DNA of 64,000 bases, taken from contig NZ_CAAHFG010000001.1 of NCBI RefSeq assembly GCF_900890425.1, positions 3,162,001 to 3,226,000 of the forward strand, in the 5' to 3' direction. The translations under genes and the position numbers were made by a program. Position 1 is the first letter of the stretch. Each line of letters starts with the position of its first letter. A model generated the notes under the pieces. It saw nothing but the letters and a program-made list of their open reading frames with translations, ran no database searches and was not told where the DNA came from. This document shows, one piece after another, positions 991 to 18,920 of the stretch. The stretch comes from Pontiella desulfatans (GTDB lineage Bacteria > Verrucomicrobiota > Kiritimatiellia > Kiritimatiellales > Pontiellaceae).

Positions 991-1299
991 ATGACAGAAA
1001 AACATAATGAAGCAGAAGTTGTAGAACTCGAGGTGTATGCCAAAGCCCGCAAGCCTGTACCAAAGGATTGCAAACTATTCCGTATCAGAATTGACCGGGA
1101 AAAATATCTCGTTCAGCAAGCAGCGCTTACTGGTGCGGAGTTGCTAAAGCTCGCCGACAAGAAACCGGATCAATACCGGATACTGTTTAAAAAATGCAAC
1201 GGTAAGACAGTTGAAGTCCCATTGGATACGCACTTCAGCTTCCTCGACCCCGGAATCGAACGCTTTATGACCCAAAAACGTACCGCTCAGGAGGGTTGA
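991..1299 (+). CDS. Ubiquitin-like modifier (multiubiquitin-domain family)
   Basis: This 102-residue protein matches the prokaryotic multiubiquitin (PF14452-type) pattern: FRIRIDREKYLV, then LTGAELLKLA, then YRILFKK and a C-terminal FSFLDPGIERFMTQ. That order is a single beta-grasp domain. The tail ends in a single glycine (QKRTAQEG), ready for activation without processing. It is the first gene of an operon with an E2, a JAB-E1 fusion and a DUF6527 protein, so it is presumably the conjugated modifier. It is shorter than multi-domain relatives, which carry two or more beta-grasp units. Confidence 0.85.
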   Translation: MTEKHNEAEVVELEVYAKARKPVPKDCKLFRIRIDREKYLVQQAALTGAELLKLADKKPDQYRILFKKCNGKTVEVPLDTHFSFLDPGIERFMTQKRTAQEG

Positions 1300-1302
1300 T
1301 CA

Positions 1303-1701
1303 ATGCGTCGCGACTTCACCCCCTATGACGAGGATCTTGCGTACCTAGAGAGCCTTGGGACACCCTGGGAAGCTGTGCGCGAAGGAAGCCGCCTCTGGTA
1401 TATTCTTCATGAATACCAGCCTCCTACGGGGTATATACCTGAAGCAGTTTCGGCAGCATTCATGCTGCCCCCGGCCTATCCTTCCACACAAATCGACATG
1501 GTTTATTTCCACCCACCCTTAAAGCGGGGCGATGGAAAAAATCCTGCCGCCCTTGCCAACCACAATCTCGATGGAAAGCAATGGCAACGCTGGTCACGGC
1601 ATCGCCCTGCCCCGGTGGATTGGAAAGACGGTGTCGATTTTCTAGGAACCCATGTGGCCTATATTGAAGGCGTCATCTCAGCCGAAGTCGAAGGAGCATA
1701 A
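1303..1701 (+). CDS. E2-like conjugating protein (prokaryotic E2 family E)
   Basis: A 132-residue protein starting three bases after the Ubl stop. It fits the prokaryotic E2 family E pattern: a hydrophobic core with PPTGYIP and AFMLPPAYPSTQIDMVYF, then DGKQWQRWSRHR, where the family usually has its active-site neighbourhood. The protein contains no cysteine at all, so a classical thioester is impossible. The serine in QRWSRH is the natural candidate nucleophile. The partner E1 also has serines where cysteine is expected, which supports an oxyester route. The family assignment is firm; the mechanism is inferred. Confidence 0.85.
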   Translation: MRRDFTPYDEDLAYLESLGTPWEAVREGSRLWYILHEYQPPTGYIPEAVSAAFMLPPAYPSTQIDMVYFHPPLKRGDGKNPAALANHNLDGKQWQRWSRHRPAPVDWKDGVDFLGTHVAYIEGVISAEVEGA

Positions 1702-1702
1702 A

Positions 1703-3088
1703 ATGCAGTACAAATTAAGAATAGCAGGCATTCATTATGCTGAATTAAGAGATGCGCTATATCCCGGCGACTGGAAAGAAGCAGGGGCTATCGCAGTTTG
1801 TGGCCGGCGTGGTTCAGAAGGATGCACCACCTTGCTCGTGCAGAAAATCCATGCAGTTCCATTTGGTGCGTATCAGTCCCGTGAACCCGACTATCTTGAG
1901 TGGGATACACAATGGATGATCGACGTTCTCAACCACGCTGAATCAGAGGATCTTTCCTTGATTAAATTCCATAGCCATCCAGGTGGCGGGTCTTTCTTTT
2001 CAGAACGGGATGATCTGACAGATATCGGCATTTTGAACGAATGGTCTATTTTGTATGACCGCGCCACGCCACACGGAAGTGTCATAATGCTGCCAGATGG
2101 CGAACTTTTTGGGCGAATGGGATATGCCGGTCATCAGTTTATCCCGATAGAATCAATAGCTGTTGCCGGCAATCAATTACATTATTGGCAGCCAACGGAT
2201 CAGGAGTGCGTCTTTAGCGATGCTGAGTCCCGAAACCTCCAGACCTTCGGTGCAGGAACCACCGCAATTCTGAAGCGACTTAAGGTTGGCGTGATCGGAT
2301 GCTCCGGCACTGGCAGTATAGTTGTCGAACAATTGGCGCGCCTGGGAGTCGGACATTTGGTTCTTGTGGATCCCGACATTGTCGAGAAAAAGAACCTAAA
2401 CCGAGTCCTTAACACGACCGAAGAGGACGCTGTTAACGAACGATCAAAGGTGGATGTATTAAGCGATGCGATTCAGAAAATGGGATTTGAAACGCAGGTT
2501 ACTCGCATTGCGACCAACCTGGTCGCACCAAAACCCATCCAAGAAATTGCGTCATGCGACGTGGTTTTTGGATGCGTGGATGGCGCAGAGGGTCGCCATA
2601 TCCTTAATCGGATTTCTTCATACTATGTGATTCCGTATTTTGATGTAGGAATTGATCTCCAGGCTAGCGAGCATGGAGGCATCTCCCAGGTTACAGGAGC
2701 CGTGCACTACATTCAGCCGGGAGGCTCAAGCCTGTTGAGCAGAGGTATCTACTCCCAGGAAGAGGTCGAAGCCGAAGCATTAAGAAGATCAGATCCTGAG
2801 CTCTACGCTAATCATCTGAAGCAAAACTATATTGCTGGCGTTAAAGAAGACAGCCCAGCCGTTCTGCCAATCAACATGCACTATGCCAGCCTGCTGGTGC
2901 TGGAGTTCCTTGCTAGAATCCACAAATACCGAATTACAGACGATGCCGAATTGGCAATACAGCAGTACAACCTTGAAGACGTTGATAATGTTTATCGGGC
3001 AGAAGACGGCTTACCTTGCGCTGCCCTGGCGAAGCGAGTCGGCCGAGGGGACACCACCCCGCTACTGGACATCATCGGATTGGAATGA
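1703..3088 (+). CDS. JAB deubiquitinase-E1 (ThiF) fusion protein
   Basis: The start at 1703 lies one base after the E2 stop (461 residues). Residues 1-150 form a JAB/JAMM metalloprotease with an intact H90-x-H92-x7-S100-x2-D103 motif. Residues 180-461 are an E1/ThiF adenylating domain: GCSGTG at 199-204, VDPD with D223, NLNR with R234, and GCVDG at 290-294. The usual catalytic-cysteine loop is PGGSSLLSR (339-347), which has serines only. One protein would therefore both activate the Ubl and remove or process it. It works with the upstream Ubl and E2 and the downstream DUF6527 protein. Confidence 0.9.
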   Translation: MQYKLRIAGIHYAELRDALYPGDWKEAGAIAVCGRRGSEGCTTLLVQKIHAVPFGAYQSREPDYLEWDTQWMIDVLNHAESEDLSLIKFHSHPGGGSFFSERDDLTDIGILNEWSILYDRATPHGSVIMLPDGELFGRMGYAGHQFIPIESIAVAGNQLHYWQPTDQECVFSDAESRNLQTFGAGTTAILKRLKVGVIGCSGTGSIVVEQLARLGVGHLVLVDPDIVEKKNLNRVLNTTEEDAVNERSKVDVLSDAIQKMGFETQVTRIATNLVAPKPIQEIASCDVVFGCVDGAEGRHILNRISSYYVIPYFDVGIDLQASEHGGISQVTGAVHYIQPGGSSLLSRGIYSQEEVEAEALRRSDPELYANHLKQNYIAGVKEDSPAVLPINMHYASLLVLEFLARIHKYRITDDAELAIQQYNLEDVDNVYRAEDGLPCAALAKRVGRGDTTPLLDIIGLE

Positions 3089-3464: not shown

Positions 3465-3680
3465 CCGCAGACCCTCTTTCTAATATTTTTTACTAGCCGG
3501 ACAAATCAGGACAGAGTTCGCACTCAACGCCTCCGTGCTGAATATTTGTCTTCGTGAAACAGTCCCCCATTCAGTAGTGGTTTTCCAGTGGAACTTGCCC
3601 CAGGTCTGACCTTGGCTGTTGAAATAGAATGAGAAAGCCGCTACCATCCGAGGCCAGTCAAATGCCGAGGGAGACATCAG

Positions 3681-4044: not shown

Positions 4045-6042
4045 CTAGAGGTTGTTGGGATCGGAAATGAACCGGAGGTTGTCGACGGATATATTCCGCG
4101 ACTTGAGATCGCGCAGGGTTTTGTGCTTTACGGATTCGGCGGTGCTGAAACTGATGATTTGATCAAAACCGAGTTCCAGCAGTTTCTGGATATTGTCGGC
4201 ACCCCGTGATCCGGTCTCGATTTCAACGGCCATGCGTTTCCCTTCCTTTTCGGCATGCAGGTCTATGCATTGGTTGTTGCCGATGGGCTTTTCCAGCTCA
4301 ACCGTCCAGCCCTCGCGGTCTAGCTTTCGGCGGATCTCGTTTTTCCAATAGTTATGGATGAGGCCGCCCTCTTTCCGCTTGGCCACCTCTACGTTGTTTC
4401 GTTTCATGGCGTCACGCATGTCCGGGGTAAAATCGAGCAGCACCACTTTTCCGGTTCGAGTTGGAATATCAACGGGATGGATAAGGCCCTTTAGAATAAG
4501 TCCCTGCTTGGCATGGTTGCCGCGTCTCCGGCTGATGGTCAACCGTGAATAGCGTTTTACGACTCCGTCAAACGGGTTTCGGTATATATCCTTCATGAGC
4601 TTTTTCTCCACTTCAGTAAGAGAGGTTCCAGGTTCGTTCTTTCCTATTCTATGAATATGGGGAACATCCTTGGTTGGGTTGGAATCCGCTTTATCCGGAG
4701 ATTCCCTTGAGGAATCCTTGGAATAGGTTCCGTATCGCTGAATGAGATGCGCGTCGGTGACGGAGCCCTTTTCGAGATCGACCTTGGGGATCTGAATCTC
4801 GAACGGGAAGATGAAGCGCGACTGGAGTTTTACGACGGCGTGGCCGATGGGCAGGAGTCCGAGCACCTCGCGGTGCTCCCGCGGGATACGCATCATTTCG
4901 GCAAGGGAATTGATGTCCTTGCTGTGCTTCATGTTGAGCGCGATGGTGCAGTAGGTATTACCGAGCGCCGGGACGGAAATCTGGCTGGGATGCTGGTCGA
5001 CCAGCACGATGGATTCGCCCATCTCCCTGATTTCACGCAGGAGGAGATCGATGACGGTTTCCTTGCCGGTGTTGGTGAGGATGTTGTGCGCCTCCTCAAC
5101 AATGACGCAGTGCTTGAAGGTTTCCCGGTCGGGTTCAAGCATCCGGCAGTGGTGGATCCAGACCATCAGCGTTTCTATAAGGAAGATCTTTTCGTTGTGC
5201 GCCAGTGAATTGAGTTCGAGGCAGACGTTTTTATCGAGCAGTTCCTGTATGCCGGATTGGGACTCGGTGTTGATGACGTCGGACACCTGTCCAAAGCAGA
5301 GGCTCTGAACGGCACGCATGGTGGAATCGAGCCACATGGCCTTCCGGCCTTTAACAGGCATCTTTTCGAGAAACTCCAGAACATCCTTCAAGGTCGGGAA
5401 CCGTTCAGGGTCGGCGGTGTAGCATCCGTATTTTGTGTAGACGGCATCGATGGCCTCCAGAAGAATGAACATGACCCCCTCCCCCAGAAAATACGCATGA
5501 CTGATAATCTCGATCAGTTTCTTGAGCCAGACCTTCAAGTCGGTGCCCGGCGGCGGGATCAGCGGATTGAAATGCAGCGGATGAACGGGTCGGCCAACGG
5601 TGTAGATTTCCAGTGGAACATCGTGCGCCAGCAGATCGCGGTAGTTCCGTTTCCAGTCGAAAATCAGGAAAGGCTTTTTGTGCCGTACCAGCTCTTTTAT
5701 GAGCAGGGCTACGGTGTTGGTTTTCCCCGCGCCGCTCCGGCCAAAAATCGCCATGTGCTGGATGAACTCGTCTTCGCAGATTCCAAAGGGATACAAGACC
5801 TGGTCGTGCGCCAGAACCTTTCCCAGCTCATACTGCCCGGCGGCATTCCCTTCCGGCGGAATATGGAGTCCGTTTTCAACGAGCGGGTTGACGCCGAATT
5901 TTCGTTCGAGCTGAAGCTCCACCAAGGCTTCGATATCGCGCTTGCCGGCGCTGTCGCTCAACTGGTGCTGGCGCCAGATTTTAAGCGCCTTGGATTTGCC
6001 GATATAGTCGGCCAGTTTCTTGAGCGATTCCTCAAAGATCAT
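4045..6042 (-). CDS. HerA/FtsK-type ATPase with winged-helix and nuclease-like tail
   Basis: A 665-residue ATPase. Walker A is GRSGAGKTN (101-109), Walker B is CVIVEEAH (312-319), and LVDQHPSQI (347-355) is a typical HerA-like sensor. After a low-complexity linker (440-470), residues 475-545 look like a winged helix (YRNPFDGVVKRYSRL, SRRRGNHAKQGLI). Residues 560-630 (IDLHAEKE, MAVEIETG) resemble PD-(D/E)xK-like modules. This layout is familiar to me from archaeal mobile-element and chromosomal HerA relatives. It probably pumps or processes element DNA. Its start overlaps the end of the upstream 185-residue gene by 11 bases, so they form one unit. Confidence 0.85.
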   Translation of the reverse strand: MIFEESLKKLADYIGKSKALKIWRQHQLSDSAGKRDIEALVELQLERKFGVNPLVENGLHIPPEGNAAGQYELGKVLAHDQVLYPFGICEDEFIQHMAIFGRSGAGKTNTVALLIKELVRHKKPFLIFDWKRNYRDLLAHDVPLEIYTVGRPVHPLHFNPLIPPPGTDLKVWLKKLIEIISHAYFLGEGVMFILLEAIDAVYTKYGCYTADPERFPTLKDVLEFLEKMPVKGRKAMWLDSTMRAVQSLCFGQVSDVINTESQSGIQELLDKNVCLELNSLAHNEKIFLIETLMVWIHHCRMLEPDRETFKHCVIVEEAHNILTNTGKETVIDLLLREIREMGESIVLVDQHPSQISVPALGNTYCTIALNMKHSKDINSLAEMMRIPREHREVLGLLPIGHAVVKLQSRFIFPFEIQIPKVDLEKGSVTDAHLIQRYGTYSKDSSRESPDKADSNPTKDVPHIHRIGKNEPGTSLTEVEKKLMKDIYRNPFDGVVKRYSRLTISRRRGNHAKQGLILKGLIHPVDIPTRTGKVVLLDFTPDMRDAMKRNNVEVAKRKEGGLIHNYWKNEIRRKLDREGWTVELEKPIGNNQCIDLHAEKEGKRMAVEIETGSRGADNIQKLLELGFDQIISFSTAESVKHKTLRDLKSRNISVDNLRFISDPNNL

Positions 6043-6589
6043 CGTTCAGCACCCTCTTAATCCTCCGCTCACCGGCATAGTCTGACCATGATTCGAATAT
6101 GTCGCCCAGCAACCGGTTGGTATCTCGCCAGCAGGCCACCTCTTCGGCATGCCTTTCCTTGGCCAGGGAATGAATCTGCTTTTCAAGCTCTGACTCGAAC
6201 CGGCTGTGAATGCCGTTATAGTTTGGCCAGTTCCGCAGCTCGGACAGGATGCCGTGAACCCGCAGCTGTTCGTATTCGGTGCTCTTTACAATGCCGTATG
6301 AAATCGCATGCCGTGCTTTGAGCTGCTTGACCAGTATATCGATGTGATCGCCATGCAGGTGCAGCCGGTCGGTCGCAAAATCCAGCGGCTCGACCTCGTA
6401 GGCGTTCCTGCTGTTGAAAATCTTCTCGGTCAGCTCGTCGGGATTCTTGAAGGGACTTTTGTCCGGCTTGATCTCCCGGATGATCTCGAAGGCGGGCTGC
6501 CCGGTTTCAACATGATAGTTGTATGCGTCCTGTTGGCGCTCCGCCTCGGCGTCATACAACGGTATTCCGTATTTGTCTTCAAATGCCAT
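6032..6589 (-). CDS. Unknown partner protein of HerA-type ATPase
   Basis: A 185-residue protein. The start at 6589 (MAFEDKYGIPLYDAE) is chosen because GGAG lies nine bases upstream; an upstream start at 6625 would fall inside the TATA-like box. The C-terminal half is rich in charged helices (RFESELEKQIHSLAKERHAEEV), suggesting coiled coil. No enzymatic motif is visible and it is not an obvious NurA nuclease. Its 3' end overlaps the ATPase start, so a complex with the ATPase is likely. An archaeal-like promoter box (6621-6639) precedes it. Confidence 0.65.
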   Translation of the reverse strand: MAFEDKYGIPLYDAEAERQQDAYNYHVETGQPAFEIIREIKPDKSPFKNPDELTEKIFNSRNAYEVEPLDFATDRLHLHGDHIDILVKQLKARHAISYGIVKSTEYEQLRVHGILSELRNWPNYNGIHSRFESELEKQIHSLAKERHAEEVACWRDTNRLLGDIFESWSDYAGERRIKRVLNDDL

Positions 6590-6620
6590 ATTACCACTCT
6601 CCGGTAGGAATAAATGGGTT

Positions 6621-6639
6621 GGCATTTATAAAGGTTTCG
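6621..6639 (-). promoter_or_regulatory. Archaeal-like BRE/TATA box before the HerA operon
   Basis: On the minus strand this reads CGAAACC-TTTATAAA-TGCC. A CGAAA stretch directly before TTTATAAA matches the archaeal BRE plus TATA pattern. There are 35 bases between the TATA box (6625-6632) and the ATG at 6589. The same CGAAACCTTTATA core with the same 35-base spacing precedes the gene at 13847-14074. Confidence 0.5.
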
Positions 6640-6743: not shown

Positions 6744-7028
6744 CTATCCGAAGCGATGACCGCCACCCAAGGAACCGCGCAGGGTTTGAAGCGCCTCGAT
6801 CGCATCATCCCACAGTCGAGTGCCATGCGTTCCCAGCACATGGGTCCGCGCCACAGCCTCGGCCACACGCCGGTCTCCGGATGAAAACAGAATGGAGTGG
6901 TTGCACCAGGGGCACTCCCATTCCCATTGATCCCCATAGGGGCTGGCCAGGCCTCCCTGCAAAACCATGCCGGAATCGGGATTCCGGCCGGCAATCGATG
7001 CAAAGAGGCGCTGTGACTCCATCCTCAT
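6744..7028 (-). CDS. Small zinc-knuckle protein (paralogue of 7995-8213)
   Basis: A 94-residue protein whose ATG overlaps the stop of the upstream gene in an ATGA arrangement, implying translational coupling. The core WECPWCNHSILFSS followed by HVLGTHG offers two cysteines and two histidines for one zinc. The same spacing occurs in the protein encoded at 7995-8213 (WHCPFCDHSLIYSE, then HVGRRHSG), so the two are paralogues within one cluster. A DNA- or RNA-binding role is a guess from the C2H2-like pattern. Confidence 0.65.
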   Translation of the reverse strand: MRMESQRLFASIAGRNPDSGMVLQGGLASPYGDQWEWECPWCNHSILFSSGDRRVAEAVARTHVLGTHGTRLWDDAIEALQTLRGSLGGGHRFG

Positions 7029-7285
7029 AAAGCATCACCTTCGTCCACCACTTCAAGGGACATGGTCTCGTACGCCTTGTTCAGCGCAAGAACCGCCTTC
7101 GGAACGTCCGCCATCCTGAGGGACGACGTACCCTTCCAGTCGCCACGCTTGTCCTTGTATCGCCGCTCAACCGTCACGTTGTGCAGCGTCTCTTCATTGC
7201 CGTCCCGACCGACGACCCGGTTCTCCCAGACAGCAACCTGGATACCGCCTGCCTTGAACTTTTTGATTGGTCTTTCGTTTGCCAT
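7025..7285 (-). CDS. Small conserved protein of archaeal-type mobile elements
   Basis: An 86-residue protein with the start at 7285, where GGAGG sits eight bases upstream. The pattern PIKKFKAGGIQVAVWEN, then VTVERRYKDKRGDWKGTSS and DVPKAVLALNKAYE, recalls small orphan proteins I associate with archaeal plasmids and integrated elements (from memory, unverified). A beta-rich first half and a helical end would suit a small nucleic-acid-binding fold. It is preceded by a 13-bp stem-loop leader (7315-7350) and followed by the coupled zinc-knuckle gene. Confidence 0.65.
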   Translation of the reverse strand: MANERPIKKFKAGGIQVAVWENRVVGRDGNEETLHNVTVERRYKDKRGDWKGTSSLRMADVPKAVLALNKAYETMSLEVVDEGDAL

Positions 7286-7350
7286 TTTATTTCCTCCGGT
7301 TGGTTGTGTCTTCTGCACAACCTGTCTTCACCTCGTGAGACAGGCTGTGC
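7286..7350 (-). promoter_or_regulatory. Stem-loop leader A
   Basis: On the minus-strand transcript, GCACAGCCTGTCT (7350-7338) pairs with AGACAGGTTGTGC (7327-7315) around a ten-base loop that contains GAGGTG. This gives a 13-bp stem with one G-U pair. It ends about 30 bases before the ATG at 7285. There is no T-run, so this is not a simple terminator. Related leaders precede three more genes of the cluster. Confidence 0.5.
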
Positions 7351-7361
7351 ACTCCAACCAA

Positions 7362-7913
7362 TTAGCGGCTTTTTCGCCGCTGCGGTTTCATCTGCACCGG
7401 GTAGATCAATATGCCCCCATCCAGCGCCTCCCAGTCCGGCTCCCTGCCAAGGAGGTTGATCTCAGCCAAGATCCGCCAGGAGGCGTTGGGGTCGCCGCTT
7501 CCGAACATGCCGATCATTTTCTGACCCTCCTCGATGAAAGATCCGAGCACCACCATCGTGTCGCCGTCGAAGGCATACACGTACTCAATGCCGCTGCCGG
7601 AGGCGTTCTTCTCGGTAACCCGCCAAGCGCTTTCGCTCCGGCCGCCGTGGCAGTAGCAACTTGGCGACCTAGACTCATCAGCGTCGCTCTGCCCGTCTTT
7701 GAACCGACATCCGACGATTGTGCTCCAACCCGCTCCATGTGCATCGATCAATGTCCGAAGCATAGCCTGCGTATCGCGTTGGAAGTCCTGGTTCCAGAGC
7801 TGGTAGAGCATGCGTCCCAGGCCGGACGGGTAGCTGTCCCAGTGATGGTAGACCCCCTCGAAACAAATCGGCGACCTGCTGGTCAATCGTGCAATACAAC
7901 CTCTTGTAGACAT
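7362..7913 (-). CDS. Conserved orphan protein of MSTRG...HWDSYPSGLG family
   Basis: A 183-residue protein starting MSTRGCIAR, then VYHHWDSYPSGLGRML. This N-terminal signature is shared by many phage and mobile-element hypothetical proteins that I recognise by pattern but cannot name. The end carries RREPDWEALDGG-like residues. A good ribosome site (GAGGTGGG) precedes the ATG. It belongs to the leftward small-gene cluster and has its own stem-loop leader. No catalytic motif is evident. Confidence 0.65.
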   Translation of the reverse strand: MSTRGCIARLTSRSPICFEGVYHHWDSYPSGLGRMLYQLWNQDFQRDTQAMLRTLIDAHGAGWSTIVGCRFKDGQSDADESRSPSCYCHGGRSESAWRVTEKNASGSGIEYVYAFDGDTMVVLGSFIEEGQKMIGMFGSGDPNASWRILAEINLLGREPDWEALDGGILIYPVQMKPQRRKSR

Positions 7914-7980
7914 TTTCCCACCTCATCAGCCACATCTCATGTGCGGCTTGTCTGCGAAGCAGGAAGACAAGCTGTGCGTG
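7914..7980 (-). promoter_or_regulatory. Stem-loop leader B
   Basis: On the minus strand GCTTGTCT (7972-7965) pairs with AGACAAGC (7953-7946) around an 11-base loop. The 20 bases at 7934-7953 are identical to 8235-8254 in leader C. Downstream of the hairpin a GAGGTG ribosome site precedes the ATG at 7913. Confidence 0.5.
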
Positions 7981-7994
7981 GGATGTACCACGGA

Positions 7995-8213
7995 CTACGA
8001 GCTGATGCTGTTGAGCAGAAGATTCCTTGGGGTGAAGTTTGCCCAGTAGCGGCCAGAATGTCGCCGACCGACATGGCTTTTTGCCGCCAGCCTTGCCACC
8101 TCACGGTGCTCTTCCGAATAGATCAACGAATGATCGCAGAATGGGCAGTGCCAGACACGCTGGCTTCGTGTGCCCACGTGTTCAGATCCTATGATAGCTG
8201 TCTGTGTCCTCAT
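7995..8213 (-). CDS. Small zinc-knuckle protein (paralogue of 6744-7028)
   Basis: A 72-residue protein with the ATG at 8213, eight bases after GAGG. A GTG start at 8222 would fall in the ribosome site. The core WHCPFCDHSLIYSEEH followed by AKSHVGRRHSG supplies two cysteines and two histidines, in the same arrangement as the protein at 6744-7028. The C-terminus differs (YWANFTPRNLLLNSISS). It is part of the leader-preceded small-gene cluster and may act with its paralogue. Confidence 0.65.
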   Translation of the reverse strand: MRTQTAIIGSEHVGTRSQRVWHCPFCDHSLIYSEEHREVARLAAKSHVGRRHSGRYWANFTPRNLLLNSISS

Positions 8214-8278
8214 GGATATCACCTCGACAACCGCATCTCATGTGCGGCTTGTCTTCCACCCCGCAAGGCAAGCCGTGT
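8214..8278 (-). promoter_or_regulatory. Stem-loop leader C
   Basis: On the minus strand CGGCTTG pairs with CAAGCCG around a 17-base loop. It shares the 20-base block 8235-8254 with leader B, and then GAGGTG lies directly before the ATG. Only the outer stem is conserved; loop sequences differ between copies. Confidence 0.5.
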
Positions 8279-8388
8279 CGATCCAGGGCATGCGACGGAG
8301 ATGCCGAAGATCCGACAGCCTTAAATGGCTAGCTCCGACAAAGTGAGTCGGAGTGCCTTTTAAGGGTTTCGGATCGAGAAAAGCGCAC

Positions 8389-8709
8389 CTAGGCCAGGTG
8401 CAGCTCCTCCATGAACTGAGCGGGAGAGATTGATGGTCTCTGCCGGGGAAGGCGTGTGTTTCGAACATGATCGATCCCAGACATGAGGCCCAGATCAACG
8501 ATCCGCTGCATCTCGGCGAGTTCTCCGCTGAGGGCAAGCTTGAGTAGATCACGAGTGATTTCGTGACGCTCCTGCTCATCGAGTTTCGGATGAAGGCCGA
8601 AGTAGCAGAGGACGTTGTCCAGCGACTCCTCGACGTCGATCGCGTCAAAGGGAAACTCCGGCTGCGTTTTGATGTACTCAACCATGTTGTGCGTATTGTA
8701 TCTATCCAT
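8389..8709 (-). CDS. Unknown acidic small protein
   Basis: A 106-residue protein with the start at 8709 (MDRYNTHNMVEYIKTQ), preceded by GAGGTGACC. The upstream extension to 8805 is rejected because it would run through a hairpin leader. The protein is acidic and helical (FPFDAIDVEESLDNVL, QERHEITRDLLKLAL). No family is recognised. It is the first gene of the leftward small-gene cluster. Confidence 0.55.
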   Translation of the reverse strand: MDRYNTHNMVEYIKTQPEFPFDAIDVEESLDNVLCYFGLHPKLDEQERHEITRDLLKLALSGELAEMQRIVDLGLMSGIDHVRNTRLPRQRPSISPAQFMEELHLA

Positions 8710-8775
8710 TTTGGTCACCTCGGACACCCCGTCTTTGCGGGGCATCTGACATCTGGAACAGATGCCCCGTGCGGG
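8710..8775 (-). promoter_or_regulatory. Stem-loop leader D
   Basis: On the minus strand GGGGCATCTG pairs with CAGATGCCCC around a ten-base loop. GAGGTGACC then precedes the ATG at 8709. The placement is like that of leaders A-C, but the stem sequence is unrelated. Confidence 0.5.
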
Positions 8776-9375
8776 TGGACGAAAGGGGATCGAAATGGAT
8801 TGCACAACATGGTTGGCATCCAGAGCAGCCGGCGGTTTCCCCCGATCGACGGACAGCCTTCGCGCGGCTTACGTTGCCCTTGCGGATCATGCTGATCGAG
8901 CTGATCAATCCGGCCATGATGATCGTGATGGTTATGCTGGTCACGCTGATTGTGTTGGTTACGCGATCATGCTGGCGATGCTGTTCAAGCTGCTCATACC
9001 GATCAAGCCGCTCTACCGATCAGGCCGCTCTACCGATCTAGCTGCTCATGCTGGTTACGCCGCTCTACCGATCAGGCCGCTCTACCGATCTAGCTGCTCA
9101 TGCTGGTTACGCCGCTCTACCGATCAGGCCGCTCTACCGATCTAGCTGCTCATGCTGGTTACGCCGCTCACGCTGATCTGATCCTAGATAGATCCCTGGT
9201 TCCCCTTCACAAATAGAAAATATTACCTAGTCGCTTTTTGATACTCTCCAATATCAATTGCCAACCAGGCACTTACGGGATTTCGAGGGGTAACGAAAAG
9301 ATACGGTTTCCGGGTTCCAAAGAGGCTTTTTGTTACTCTGAAGACCGATTATTGGTACTTGCGTTACTACCGCTA
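8776..9375. other. Gene-free repeat region between small-gene cluster and repressor
   Basis: About 600 bases without a convincing gene. From 8880 to 9007 the sequence is built from variants of GATCATGCTGATC and GATCAAGCCGCT, and then passes into a perfect 52-bp tandem repeat (9008-9163). Open frames across it are low-complexity products of the repeat. The stretch 9180-9375 is unremarkable and leads into the repressor gene's 3' end. It probably contains the promoter of the leftward cluster. Confidence 0.5.
9008..9163. repeat. 52-bp tandem repeat, three perfect copies
   Basis: Three consecutive identical 52-bp units (9008-9059, 9060-9111, 9112-9163), followed by the first seven bases of a fourth. 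Each unit contains CCGCTCTACCGATC twice, so there is also a shorter internal periodicity. Iteron-like arrays of this type are known at plasmid origins, partition sites and transfer origins. Which applies here is not visible. Confidence 0.9.
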
Positions 9376-10572: not shown

Positions 10573-11138
10573 TTCCCAGCGAGAGTAAACTTCCACTGGA
10601 ACACTACGCAAGCGCGGTCGGTTCATCCCATTGAATCGGCCGCGCGTCTTTTCATTCCTCCAATAGATTTATAACTGTAGTCCTGTAGTAGTAGTATAGT
10701 AGTAGTTATAGATAGTAGTAAGTAGTAGTAGGCTCCACTGGAAATCTACTCCCACTGGCGGGCATGCCGCCTTATGCCATCTACGATCCATCAAGCATGA
10801 AGCCTTGAGCGGATTGTGAAATGTTGCCGCCGAGAATGTAGATGGAGGTTGCCACTCATTTCATTCGCTGCTTTCCTTCGGAAAGCCCCGCTTCGCGTCC
10901 AGCTCCATTGTCCAGGGGTGGCAAGCGGATGTCGCATGCATGGCGGAGCTGGAAGCTCCATCTACATTGTCTAAGCTTGGGCTTCGTTTTTTGGAGTTGT
11001 CCAGCCCTGAACTTGTTTCGAAGACCTATTTCGCCCGCAGGCGGTATCCATGTTTTCTGCCACTACACCCCAGTGACGCAAAAGATTTAAATAGTTCCCC
11101 CATCTACACTTCCACTGGAGTGTGATTTTCCAGTGGAA
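10573..11138. other. Candidate archaeal-type replication origin beside orc1/cdc6
   Basis: A 560-base gene-free stretch directly upstream of the Orc1/Cdc6 gene. It holds four copies of a TTCCASTGGAA-like motif: 10591-10601, 10733-10743, 11110-11120 and 11128-11138, one or two of them with one mismatch. The motif resembles the mini-ORB core (TTCCAGTGGAAAC) bound by archaeal Orc1/Cdc6. Between the first two copies, 10657-10732 is rich in A, T and TAG triplets and could be the unwinding element. The last copy overlaps the GTG start, which would allow autoregulation. Confidence 0.55.
10835..10968. repeat. 134-bp element with 13-bp terminal inverted repeats
   Basis: AATGTAGATGGAG (10835-10847) and CTCCATCTACATT (10956-10968) are perfect inverted repeats. 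No open frame of interest lies between them. The size and structure fit a miniature inverted-repeat element inserted into the candidate origin region. No target duplication was established. Confidence 0.5.
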
Positions 11139-12389
11139 AGCAATATACAACAACGCATATGGGCTGAAATAGAGCAGGCAACAGAGAATTCGGTTGTCGT
11201 CAATCAGGACTACTTGGACGACGAGCAGCTTACGCGCCAGCGCCAATTCGAAGTCCTGAGCGAAATATTTAATATGAACATCCGGAGCCAGGAGATCCGG
11301 ACGATCAGCAACCACTTCTCTCCTGTTTTTCGGGGCGGGCATCCCAACCACCTTGGACTTGGCGGCAAGACCGGCACGGGGAAGACCATCACGATTCTCT
11401 GGTTCCTTGCCCAGGTGGCCCAGCTCTGCAAAGAGCGGGACATTCCATTCCGGCAGGTGCATCTGGATTTTTGCTGCCCGGTTCCGTGTTTTCGTGCGCT
11501 CAACACATTGGCCTGTCTGCTGGATGCCAGCAAGGCCTACCGCAAAGGCATCAGCCTCGAAGAACTGATGGTTCGAATTGAGCGGAAGCTGGCTTCGCTA
11601 CGGGGATTTCTGGTGATCTTCATCGATGAGGCGGACAATGTCCGAACCGATTTCAACACCTTCTATCAGTTCCTCATCAAGCGGCTTCCACAGCGAATAT
11701 CGGCCAAGCTGATCTTGGTCTTTGCCTCCAACCGGCTGAATTGGATGGAGAACCTCGATCCCCGAGTAAAAAGCTGCCTAAAGCTGCGTGAGATGATCTT
11801 CCAGCCCTACGACGCAGACAGTCTGCACAGGATACTGGAAATCCGGGTCAAGAAGGCGATGCGTTCTGATCGAATTGAAGAAGGGGTGATTCCCAAGATC
11901 GCGGCGTTGGCCTCCCAGCAGCATGGCGATGCCCGGAAAGCGGTCAATCTGCTACGGCGTTCCGCGGAGTTGGCGGAGGAGGATCGGACTCCGATCTCTC
12001 TTGAGACCATTGGTCGCGCATATGAAGAAATCGAACGTGACAAGTACGTGGATATGATCCGGGGCAGCCCAAAGCAGCTTCAGGCCGCGCTCTATGCAGC
12101 GCTGACGGGCAAACCAAAGGGCGGGCGCGTCCTTCACACCGGTGATGCATATTTGGTCTACGAGCGATTCTGTGCAGAGTCCGGGCTTCGACCGGTAACC
12201 CAGCGGGCGTTCAGCGATCTGCTATGCGAACTGGATATGTATGGATACTTGAGGGCACGGACCGTATCCCGAGGTCGCTATGGCCGAAGCAAGGACATCC
12301 ACGTGACCTTGGCTCCCAACATTCACAAACGGCTTCTTCATGTTATCAGGAGCAATTTCGATCTGGATTCCGGGGTGAGCTACGCATGA
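11133..12389 (+). CDS. cdc6: Orc1/Cdc6-family replication initiator (archaeal type)
   Basis: A 418-residue AAA+ protein. Walker A is GKTGTGKT (78-85), Walker B is VIFIDEAD (161-168), sensor 1 is FASN (197-200), and sensor 2 GDARKAVNLLRRS (265-277) is diagnostic of Orc1/Cdc6. The C-terminal winged helix (about 305-395) carries TQRAFSDLLCELDMYGYL and VSRGRYGRSKDIHV, which match archaeal Cdc6 very closely. It should bind origin boxes and load a replicative helicase. The start is a GTG lying inside an ORB-like motif. A TTTAAATA box with AAAAGA before it lies 39 bases upstream. Its end overlaps the next gene (ATGA). A bacterial DnaA or RepA identity is excluded by the winged helix. Confidence 0.93.
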   Translation: MESNIQQRIWAEIEQATENSVVVNQDYLDDEQLTRQRQFEVLSEIFNMNIRSQEIRTISNHFSPVFRGGHPNHLGLGGKTGTGKTITILWFLAQVAQLCKERDIPFRQVHLDFCCPVPCFRALNTLACLLDASKAYRKGISLEELMVRIERKLASLRGFLVIFIDEADNVRTDFNTFYQFLIKRLPQRISAKLILVFASNRLNWMENLDPRVKSCLKLREMIFQPYDADSLHRILEIRVKKAMRSDRIEEGVIPKIAALASQQHGDARKAVNLLRRSAELAEEDRTPISLETIGRAYEEIERDKYVDMIRGSPKQLQAALYAALTGKPKGGRVLHTGDAYLVYERFCAESGLRPVTQRAFSDLLCELDMYGYLRARTVSRGRYGRSKDIHVTLAPNIHKRLLHVIRSNFDLDSGVSYA

Positions 12390-14074: not shown

Positions 14075-14090
14075 CATAGGCACCTCTAAC

Positions 14091-14133
14091 ACCTGCGAAG
14101 ATGCCGAAATATATAAAGGTTTCGTTTTCGAGG
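14091..14133 (-). promoter_or_regulatory. Archaeal-like BRE/TATA box; 43-bp repeat copy 1
   Basis: On the minus strand the core is CGAAACC-TTTATATA-TTTCGG (14104-14124), with 35 bases from the TATA box to the ATG at 14074. The surrounding 43 bases match 16609-16651 at 40 positions. The plus-strand frame starting at 14101 is an artefact of this repeat. Confidence 0.5.
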
Positions 14134-14728: not shown

Positions 14729-16210
14729 TTATCTTTGCAGTAATTCCTCCTTAAGCTGCTTCCAGTTTTTTTCGGTCATAGCCTCGAGCTTATCCCGCAC
14801 CCACCGAGGCAATGGATCTGTGATGACTTCAGCCTCGGCATCCTTCACATCGTCTCCAATATACAGCGTTGCTCTTTTTGCAGCATCGTCCGAAACATGG
14901 GCATACAAACCGGTCATCGCCGAGCTTCCATGACCTGCTATTTTCTGCACGATAATCTGCGACGTCCCCTTGTTCGCCTGCATGGATATGAAGGTGTGCC
15001 GAAGGGAGTGAAACCCGACGGCAACAACGGCCTTTTCCCCTGTATACACCTTGATGTACTTCCCTTTATTTTCGGGATCTGGTTCGACCTTGTATCCAGT
15101 ACCGTCGGCATGGATCTGTATACCGCATGATACGAAATGATTTTGAATCCGGTTCGTTATGCGGGTGCGATGCGTATTCTTCCCCTTTTCAGAAACGTAG
15201 TTGTAATCCGCAGCGCACTCTGGCAGCACATAACCTCTCCGTTTTGACTTTGGGGTTTCCAACAACCGACGAACCAATCTTGGAGGTATGCCGATTTTCA
15301 CCGCTTCAGACTGCGTCTTACTTGGAACTCGTTTGATCATTGGCATATCGAGCAGGCACTCATCCCATTTCAATGTGCAGCAATCTCCCAAGCGCAATCC
15401 CGTATAAGCTCCAAGCATGAACAATGTCTGGAAATCCCCTTCTGCCCTATCAAGAACCATCACCAATTCCTCCTCGGTCAAATCCCTGCGTGTATGCTCC
15501 TTGGCACGGGCTTTCGCCTTGGCCTTCGATAAGCTCTTAGTCGTAAGGTCGGCAAATGGCGAAACATCACCCCGTATCTCTTCCTTCATCACGTAGTAGA
15601 TAAGTTTAAGGAAATTGATGTGTTTGTTGTAGGTGCCAGAGGCAGCTTTTCGACCCAACAATCTGGCATATTCAAATGCGGCCTTTCTATCGATATCTCG
15701 CATGTAGACAACTTCTGAGTCATACGACGTCAACCACCCCACAAACTGATTCCAATGACCGTGGTAGTTGTAGAGCATCGTCGATCCGCAATCCAATGCG
15801 GGATGATCCTTAAAGCAGCTCCACGCGTCCTCGACAGTCAAAGGTGGGTCTGCATCTTCTATTACGGATAGATGCCTGGCCTCGACCCTTTGCAGTTCAG
15901 CCTTAAGGAGCCCGACCCTGTCACCCGTGACATACTGCGCCATGAGTTTCTCCTGAGCAATACGGGCTTTTTTAAGCGTCGTGATCGGATTTCCATCCTC
16001 ATCCAGAAGCTTCTCCCGCTTTTTATTTTTAATGGGTTTCTCTGTAACCGGGTCTGTCTTGCCGGTTGGTTTCTGATACTCGATCCAGTAAACTCCACCA
16101 TTGACCCCCGGAGTTCCTGCGGGAAAATCACGTTTATCTCTTGAGCGAATATATAACCGCCCCATCCCGCGCTTGGCGCGGCCTGCACTGCCTTGCTTCC
16201 CGGTGGTCAT
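14729..16210 (-). CDS. int: Tyrosine recombinase (phage-type integrase)
   Basis: A 493-residue recombinase. The catalytic set is complete: R273 (TGLRLGD), H401-x-x-R404 (HSLRHTF), H427 (AGHGSS) and Y436 (LYAHV). The N-terminal half contains an arm-binding region and a SAM-like core-binding domain (about 125-215). It is longer than most phage integrases owing to a charged N-terminal extension and inserts in the catalytic domain. GGAG precedes the ATG. It lies between truncated tRNA-Leu and tRNA-Tyr 3' parts and presumably catalyses integration at one of them. Confidence 0.92.
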   Translation of the reverse strand: MTTGKQGSAGRAKRGMGRLYIRSRDKRDFPAGTPGVNGGVYWIEYQKPTGKTDPVTEKPIKNKKREKLLDEDGNPITTLKKARIAQEKLMAQYVTGDRVGLLKAELQRVEARHLSVIEDADPPLTVEDAWSCFKDHPALDCGSTMLYNYHGHWNQFVGWLTSYDSEVVYMRDIDRKAAFEYARLLGRKAASGTYNKHINFLKLIYYVMKEEIRGDVSPFADLTTKSLSKAKAKARAKEHTRRDLTEEELVMVLDRAEGDFQTLFMLGAYTGLRLGDCCTLKWDECLLDMPMIKRVPSKTQSEAVKIGIPPRLVRRLLETPKSKRRGYVLPECAADYNYVSEKGKNTHRTRITNRIQNHFVSCGIQIHADGTGYKVEPDPENKGKYIKVYTGEKAVVAVGFHSLRHTFISMQANKGTSQIIVQKIAGHGSSAMTGLYAHVSDDAAKRATLYIGDDVKDAEAEVITDPLPRWVRDKLEAMTEKNWKQLKEELLQR

Positions 16211-16530: not shown

Positions 16531-16608
16531 ATTCTTTACACAAAACTCCCTGCTCGAAACTGATCAAACGAGTTTGCTACTGAGTCATCTGTACTATGCC
16601 GAAATAAT

Positions 16609-16651
16609 ACCTGAGAAGATGCCGAAATATATAAAGGTTTCGCTTTCAAGG
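16609..16651. repeat. 43-bp repeat copy 2 (orphan BRE/TATA-like box)
   Basis: Matches 14091-14133 at 40 of 43 positions, including the CGAAACCTTTATATATTTCGG core on the minus strand. Here the downstream frame is only MTQ and a stop, so it drives no visible gene. It lies on the chromosomal side of the tRNA-Tyr fragment, suggesting a relic of a second element. The rest of 16531-16874 shows nothing else of note. Confidence 0.7.
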
Positions 16652-17818: not shown

Positions 17819-18304
17819 ATGACTGCAACTGCTGAGAAAGAAAGACTGCTGACACCGGAAATCGACGCTTTCATTGGAAAGTGGATCGACAAGCCGGGCA
17901 ACCTAATCATGGTCCTTCACCGTGTTCAGGAAGAATTTGGCTTCATCCCGCGCCAAGCCGCGTTCGAAGTGGCCGCCGCCCTGGATATTCCGGTCGCGAA
18001 GATCTATGGCGTAATTACCTTCTACCACTTCTTTAAGCTAACGAAGCCGGGCAGGAACCAGATTGCGGTCTGCATGGGCACCGCCTGCTACCTTAAGGGT
18101 GGGCAGGATTTGATCGACGAGTGCGAGCGCAAGCTTGGCGTTGGCCTCAATACGGTTACCGAAGACGGCGAATTCTCCGTTGAAGCGGTTCGCTGCATCG
18201 GTTGCTGCGGCCTCGCCCCGGTTCTGACCGTCAACGGCGAAGTGTTCGGCTGCGTTGAAACCAAGCAGATGGGCAAGATCATCGACCAGTTTGAAGGGAA
18301 GTAG
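17819..18304 (+). CDS. hydC: HydC/NuoE-type [2Fe-2S] subunit of bifurcating hydrogenase
   Basis: A 161-residue thioredoxin-fold [2Fe-2S] protein. The cluster cysteines are C85 and C90 (CMGTAC), C126 and C130 (CIGCCG). The N-terminal helical part (LIMVLHRVQEEFGFIP) is typical of NuoE. In trimeric HydABC it docks to the flavoprotein subunit and takes part in electron bifurcation between NADH and ferredoxin. It is the first gene of the operon, divergent from rex. Confidence 0.93.
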   Translation: MTATAEKERLLTPEIDAFIGKWIDKPGNLIMVLHRVQEEFGFIPRQAAFEVAAALDIPVAKIYGVITFYHFFKLTKPGRNQIAVCMGTACYLKGGQDLIDECERKLGVGLNTVTEDGEFSVEAVRCIGCCGLAPVLTVNGEVFGCVETKQMGKIIDQFEGK

Positions 18305-18374
18305 GGAATGACGAGTGAGCCGTGAGGCGTGATCCACTACATATCACGAATCACGTTTCACGCATCAGGAAACC

Positions 18375-18920
18375 ATGCATGCCACGATTTGCGATTTAAT
18401 TACGGACTTGGTCCAAAACTCAATCGAGGCAAGCGCGAGTGAAATCACCCTTAACGTCGAGGAGACCGGAACCAATCTTAAAGTCGTGATTGCGGACAAC
18501 GGAAAAGGAATGAGCGCCGAAACGCTGGAGAAGGCCAAAGATCCCTTTTGGTCGGACGGACTCAAGCATAAGCACCGCAAGGTAGGCCTGGGCCTCCCCT
18601 TCCTCTTCCAAACCTCGGAAATGACCGGGGGCACCGCGGGGATCGAATCGGAGGAAGGCGTTGGAACAACGGTGACCTTCAACCTCGATCCGGCGAATGT
18701 GGACTTGCCGATGTTCGGCAACTTCACCACGGCGGCGGTCACGCTGATGACCTATGGATTCGACGGGAACCTGACGATCAGACGAAGTTTAGGCGGAAAA
18801 GAATACGAAGTGAGCAAACATGAACTGATAGAGGCACTGGGCGATCTGAACGATCTGGAAAGCCTGACCCTGCTGAAGCAGTTCATCTGCTCACAAGAAG
18901 AGGAATTGGGAACTTTATAA
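18375..18920 (+). CDS. HATPase-domain protein in hydrogenase operon
   Basis: A 181-residue protein with a GHKL/HATPase fold: N-box DLVQNSIEA, G1 DNGKGM, GLGLPFL and a GVGTTV G2 box. There is no histidine-kinase dimerisation domain. Stand-alone HATPase genes occur in many HydABC-type operons and are presumed regulatory, possibly anti-sigma-like; the function is not established. The 70-base spacer before it contains short GTGA/TCAC repeats. It sits between hydC and the thioredoxin-like ferredoxin gene. Confidence 0.8.
   Translation: MHATICDLITDLVQNSIEASASEITLNVEETGTNLKVVIADNGKGMSAETLEKAKDPFWSDGLKHKHRKVGLGLPFLFQTSEMTGGTAGIESEEGVGTTVTFNLDPANVDLPMFGNFTTAAVTLMTYGFDGNLTIRRSLGGKEYEVSKHELIEALGDLNDLESLTLLKQFICSQEEELGTL

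Follow-up and report, generated by a model that had tools for sequence, protein, structure and literature searches.

A compact leader RNA with two overlapping hairpins, repeated ahead of small genes on cdc6/HerA mobile elements in bacteria

Four small minus-strand genes, A to D, are each preceded by a structured leader in the window, that is, in the whole stretch of 64,000 nucleotides that was analysed, and these leaders form one RNA family. It seems to be a structured RNA family not described before, with a compact three-strand switch, and as far as has been seen it is restricted to mobile elements carrying an archaeal-type replication initiator in bacteria. Elements related to this one in other bacteria carry the leader too, which makes it a probable RNA switch, as yet undescribed, for setting the amount of each protein made. 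The leaders are best read, with modest confidence, as cis-acting bistable elements that gate translation initiation gene by gene on cdc6/HerA mobile elements.

A reading of the sequence alone had reported hairpins in the 5' leaders of genes A to D, and these are indeed present in all four. They are leader RNA structures. None is followed by a T run, as had also been noted, and intrinsic terminators were rejected as an identity for them on that account. The perfect 20-base match between leaders B and C (7934-7953 = 8235-8254) and the GAGGTG ribosome site of B, C and D were likewise confirmed; the SD of A is GGAGG. Overlooked, however, was the presence in each leader of two overlapping hairpins with one strand in common. 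The common frame, already visible on aligning the four leaders, runs 5' to 3' as x, loop 1, x', a short loop 2, x'', SD and ATG, where x is about 12 nt, x' 12 nt, loop 2 5-8 nt and x'' 9 nt, followed by about one base before the SD. Hairpin 1 (H1) is formed by x and x' and hairpin 2 (H2) by x' and x''; since both use strand x', full H1 and full H2 are mutually exclusive. The features concerned are as follows.

7283..7349, minus strand: leader A, with x 7338-7349, loop 1 7328-7337, x' 7316-7327, loop 2 CAGAAGA 7309-7315, x'' 7300-7308, SD GGAGG 7293-7297 and ATG 7283-7285; predicted energies H1 -26.2 and H2 -8.3 kcal/mol
7911..7976, minus strand: leader B, with x 7965-7976, loop 1 7954-7964, x' 7942-7953, loop 2 CATGAGA 7935-7941, x'' 7926-7934, SD GAGGTG 7919-7924 and ATG 7911-7913
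8211..8277, minus strand: leader C, with x 8266-8277, loop 1 8255-8265, x' 8243-8254, loop 2 CATGAGA 8236-8242, x'' 8227-8235, SD GAGGTG 8220-8225 and ATG 8211-8213
8707..8769, minus strand: leader D, with x 8758-8769, loop 1 8750-8757, x' 8738-8749, loop 2 CAAAGA 8732-8737, x'' 8723-8731, SD GAGGTG 8716-8721 and ATG 8707-8709; predicted energies H1 -20.6 and H2 -15.4 kcal/mol
7025..7285, minus strand: gene A, 86 aa, beta4-alpha protein with a weak PUR/PC4-like fold match; homologues in E1-E4 (defined below), L058, L070, L072 and L076
7362..7913, minus strand: gene B, 183 aa, weak phrog_1987/phrog_23089 match; window element only, with a homologue in the IMG/VR contig L004
7995..8213, minus strand: gene C, 72 aa, zinc-ribbon-like CPFC protein; window element only
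8389..8709, minus strand: gene D, 106 aa, helical; homologues in E1-E4 and L107, with the leader in all
6744..7028, minus strand: zn7028, a second zinc-ribbon product (CPWC), whose start overlaps the stop of A; without its own leader

The 3' end of H1 lies 26-31 nt upstream of the ATG, and H2 ends about 7-16 nt upstream, flush with the SD, which is not paired in H2 and sits just outside it. In most Pontiellaceae copies the distance from loop 2 to the SD is 10 nt, and loop 2 is CANAAGA-like in this family, with lower conservation elsewhere. By a repeat finder, 58 nt of leaders B and C (7919-7976 and 8220-8277) are 79% identical, and the 20-base block that they share is essentially strand x' plus loop 2. 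Upstream of gene D there is in addition a 52-bp tandem repeat of 3.5 copies (96%) at 8985-9169. Single-sequence statistics are uneven across the four leaders, with MFE z-scores of -5.4 for A, -2.6 for D, -0.9 for B and -0.2 for C. Two overlapping hairpins are also possible at 37 of 147 control gene starts under a loose energy test, and 12-25% of control starts pass loose overlap tests. Such z-scores and descriptors do not set B and C apart from background, and the family is therefore argued from comparison.

The element that carries genes A to D is integrated and encodes an initiator of the orc1/cdc6 family, an ATPase of HerA/CedD-like type and a tyrosine recombinase, located in the window as listed here.

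11133..12389, plus strand: orc1/cdc6-family replication initiator, the marker of the element family (TIGR02928, E 4e-74)
4045..6592, minus strand: gene T and the HerA/CedD-like ATPase, the conserved core of the element; without the leader, and with an archaeal-promoter-like box ahead at 6625-6638
14729-16210: XerA-like integrase gene (tyrosine recombinase)

The cdc6 elements comprise the window copy (W), three sisters in the same genome and one in the same-genus Pontiellaceae bacterium B12227, and the copies outside the window are named E1 (L010/L041), E2 (L011), E3 (L012) and E4 (L013). A, D, T, HerA and cdc6 are common to W and E1-E4, while B, C and zn7028, which have no homologue in E1-E4 by tblastn, occur in W only; the gene order is D-C-B-A-zn-T-HerA in W versus A-D-T-HerA in E1-E4. 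Relatives of HerA are spread over many phyla, reaching Nanoarchaeota and Pacearchaeota.

Several further observations concern the elements themselves. An Orc1/Cdc6-type initiator is carried here on bacterial mobile elements, in four copies in one genome and coupled to HerA-family ATPases (sister cdc6 copies in L007, L008, L009 and L006). Boxes of the form GAAACCTTTATAWA, resembling archaeal BRE+TATA promoters, are found on the minus strand of the window at 6625-6638, 14110-14123 and 16628-16641, and also in L010-L013. The three in the window, against 0.28 expected with one mismatch allowed, all lie within the element or at its border, and the one ahead of the T-HerA operon recurs in sister elements. 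The sequence TTCCANTGGAA is present in four copies in the window (3583-3593, 5608-5618, 10591-10601 and 11128-11138; 0.12 expected), one of which lies just upstream of cdc6, and the sequence recurs at cdc6 in E2; these copies may be boxes by which the Orc1/Cdc6 protein recognises an origin. A 47-bp direct repeat, 91% identical, flanks the integrase gene at 14087-14133 and 16605-16651. E2 has a second HerA-like ATPase (L011 18776-20806) beside a CxxC protein (18210-18779), and this ATPase is also found in E4. Window positions 991-3088 hold what look, from the sequence alone, like a small ubiquitin-like ORF, a possible E2-like ORF and an adjoining JAB/E1-like fusion.

Comparison among these copies was decisive for the leader family, as judged at the sequence level, through the same layout and compensatory changes in the sisters together with restriction across the genome. 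The A and D leaders have the same layout in 5/5 elements (W and E1-E4), and both hairpins covary. The sequence-only reading hung on homologous elements keeping the hairpins with compensatory changes, and E1-E4 do keep both hairpins and carry such changes. Because the leaders were aligned by hand and padded with N, the following counts lean towards structure. Over 15 leaders, 80.6% of cells are paired in H1, compared with 51% when shuffled and 26-44% when slid; over the 9 bp of H2, 86.7% are paired, compared with 60% shuffled and 27-36% slid, and two-sided changes occur at 9/9 H2 positions. The outer half of H2 is crucial for exclusivity, since its x' bases are the same as those of the H1 core, and here 76% of cells are paired versus 44% shuffled and 21-41% slid. 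Leaders found as held-out matches are free of the hand-registration bias. These comparisons indicate two alternative helices with a common strand, both conserved, in which outer H1 is weak: pairs -1 to -4 reach 60%, versus 50% shuffled and 58% slid by one.

The weakness of the outer H1 pairs means that a non-exclusive stack of short H1 and short H2 is possible. In such an arrangement a static double hairpin, which does not switch, would serve a protein of the host or of the element (an RNase or an RNA-binding protein) as a site for binding or cutting, and would set mRNA stability or processing between operon genes. This explanation is unlikely, yet it deserves to be kept in view: its non-overlapping version (H1 -5 to -12, H2 -1 to -4) fits the model leaders and was used in the covariance models, and a conserved loop 2 is likewise in keeping with it. 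On the other hand, covariation is strong in the extended H2 pairs, which invade the core of H1, and the near-constant SD spacing favours translation initiation over cutting.

A covariance search in related elements, which the sequence-only reading had proposed, recovered leaders in the sister elements and beyond. The next-best sensible matches of model R1, trained only on the leaders of A, B, C and D, stand directly ahead of S (a SprT-like protease, PF10263) and Q in sister elements. Across the entire 8.66 Mb genome, the matches of a second model, R2, with E < 0.01 are confined to the four cdc6 elements, and all of them are leaders apart from an echo of leader B on the opposite strand. The contig L070, which was binned as Chloroflexi, contains leaders that R2 matches at E 5e-8 and 6e-7, one of them preceding a homologue of A; by eye, similar leaders stand ahead of a further two genes of this contig. 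In L107, which comes from a different family of the host's phylum, an R2 match with E 0.013 lies directly ahead of a D homologue; in Lentisphaerae (L058), the layout ahead of an A homologue was recognized by eye, and the model gave no score. The leader is absent from A homologues in L072, L076 and a second subfamily, and from the B homologue in the IMG/VR contig L004. The B probe found one viral-contig relative and none in genome contigs, and probes for A, zn7028, Cdc6 and HerA had no match in viral contigs. Weak model matches in other Kiritimatiellota genomes (e.g. L033-L039) were rejected as chance, since no leader layout was seen by eye (L053 and L054 left out). No Rfam 15 family scored above its gathering threshold, a relaxed E giving spurious matches only, and no description of the leader was found in a literature search conducted mostly outside subscription journals.

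The leader keeps its position ahead of different genes (A, B, C, D, S, Q and those of L070). That the small genes behind it change, that its structure is conserved above its sequence, as in attC, and that a XerA-like integrase gene lies nearby would all be expected of a site acting in DNA, either an integron attC-like single-stranded recombination site used with the tyrosine recombinase of the window or an operator or replication site. The RYYYAAC or GTTRRRY core sites, however, occur in 0/19 leaders, and integron attC sites were rejected on this account; a double-stranded operator fits poorly with sequence that varies while pairing is kept, and the spacing to SD and ATG is fixed. Cassette exchange is also at odds with same-gene leaders across elements being slightly more alike (mean 0.56) than different-gene leaders within an element (0.51). 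A DNA-level role is accordingly considered very unlikely.

Control of transcription has to be weighed as well, since the genes on either side of a leader run in the same direction (D-C-B-A; A-D) and attenuators typically have alternative hairpins. They could thus be antitermination sites (nut/boxB-like), attenuators or Rho-blocking sites between genes of one operon. However, with no T runs they would not be intrinsic terminators, and it is the SD and ATG, not the ends of genes, that fix where they lie. Most copies showed no boxA on inspection by eye, and nothing resembling a gene for N or LoaP was identified, which leaves this explanation improbable.

What comparison of the sequences does support is the layout, the covarying hairpins on x', the SD spacing, the unrelated gene families and the restriction within the genome. 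From these we infer action at translation, the direction of the switch and a trans-acting binder. In ensemble calculations, several leaders are near balance between H1 and H2, such as E1_A (0.49/0.52) and W_D (0.69/0.31), and the extremes are all H1 in W_A and both L070 leaders tested and all H2 in the E2 and E4 S leaders; as the predicted populations vary so widely, the equilibrium balance is not conserved. In the nascent RNA, H1 is predicted first in all leaders except E2 and E4 S. No conserved upstream ORF was found at the leaders, and leader-peptide attenuation was rejected for this reason. The hairpin geometry, the ensembles and the lack of a conserved upstream ORF therefore favour a bistable leader that gates translation.

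In the bistable switch, x' would pair either with the upstream x in H1 or with the downstream x'' in H2. The 30S footprint extends from about -20 to +15. H1, which is expected to form first during transcription, would lie about 28 nt from the ATG, outside the usual 30S footprint, and would represent the open state. When H2 is stabilised, most simply by a loop-binding protein for which loop 2 is the likely contact site, the ribosome site would be closed. The footprint would thus be free with H1 and crowded with H2, and occlusion would be steric, the SD itself being unpaired. Repetition of the leader ahead of each gene would place the whole set under one signal.

The sequence-only reading had suggested binding sites for an RNA-binding protein, perhaps the zinc-knuckle proteins of the same cluster; processing sites or insulators, its alternatives, may also apply. 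A binding site fits the conserved H2 loop and the near-fixed SD spacing; the choice of partner is not supported. C and zn7028 are encoded beside the leaders in the window, but E1-E4 have the same leaders and no homologue of either protein (tblastn and motif scan), so the zinc-knuckle proteins are not the general partner, and leaders serving as their binding sites are extremely unlikely. As a whole, that earlier reading is partly supported.

A more suitable candidate for the binder is the product of A, which might act in autogenous control; alone among the proteins, it turned up near leaders in all of the elements examined. It is predicted to fold as beta4-alpha (pLDDT 85), and its top structural neighbours are PUR-alpha chains, with a Foldseek E of 0.09 to Borrelia Pur-alpha. 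The best comparison, with human PURA, gives Z 6.1 (2.6 A over 62 residues), which is below the level showing a shared fold. PC4 and Whirly chains are low-scoring or absent in the fold list of A. A Z of less than 8 need not indicate more than a common arrangement, and the PUR/PC4 match is therefore to be taken as a lead. PUR-alpha proteins belong to the PC4-like family of nucleic-acid-binding proteins (PMC7990775). The predicted structure of D is poor (pLDDT 68).

It may be speculated, with considerable doubt, that the leaders constitute a mobile-element RNA regulon, in which one compact switch RNA, copied to positions ahead of many small genes unrelated to one another, answers to the element's own product A as a binder of single-stranded nucleic acid. 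The element would thereby read its own replication or single-strand state and set the translation of its accessory genes, and the system would have spread with cdc6/HerA elements across phyla of bacteria. If the switch is real, elements of this kind can place many accessory genes under one RNA-level signal. Moreover, the leader offers a short, testable model RNA with a candidate protein partner, and the covariance model is usable as a marker for further elements of this kind.

By analogy, the leader would work like a translational switch or operator, and no membership of a named family is claimed. Mobile neighbourhoods of HerA/FtsK and Orc/CDC6 (PMC10853773) have the same pairing of two ATPases as here; in the parts of that work consulted, they centre on nucleases and conflict systems, and leader RNA is not mentioned. 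The leader resembles integron attC in having structure conserved above sequence and small genes adjoining, but it lacks core sites and keeps a fixed place relative to the SD and ATG of the gene that follows. Erm-type translational attenuators need a translated leader peptide. Like them, the leader has overlapping hairpins upstream of a gene that exchange strands, whereas it has no conserved upstream ORF and its SD is not sequestered. Hairpins that exclude each other near the SD can gate 30S binding in translational riboswitches and in the autogenous leaders of ribosomal-protein genes. The leader shares with these its mutually exclusive hairpins near the SD, and differs in having no ligand-binding core, a length of only about 58 nt, no Rfam match and, as far as seen, a residence on mobile elements. 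The translational operators of T4 and RB69 (the gp43 hairpin and gp32 pseudoknot; PMC3014915) are likewise structured RNAs near the ribosome site in a mobile genome, and T4 gp32 and gp43, both of which bind nucleic acids, regulate their own synthesis at translation via structured leaders (PMC3014915). In a T4-type operator the encoded protein binds the leader, whereas A is a candidate binder only; and while each of those operators has been described for one autoregulated gene, the leader reported here stands ahead of at least six gene families and carries two competing hairpins.
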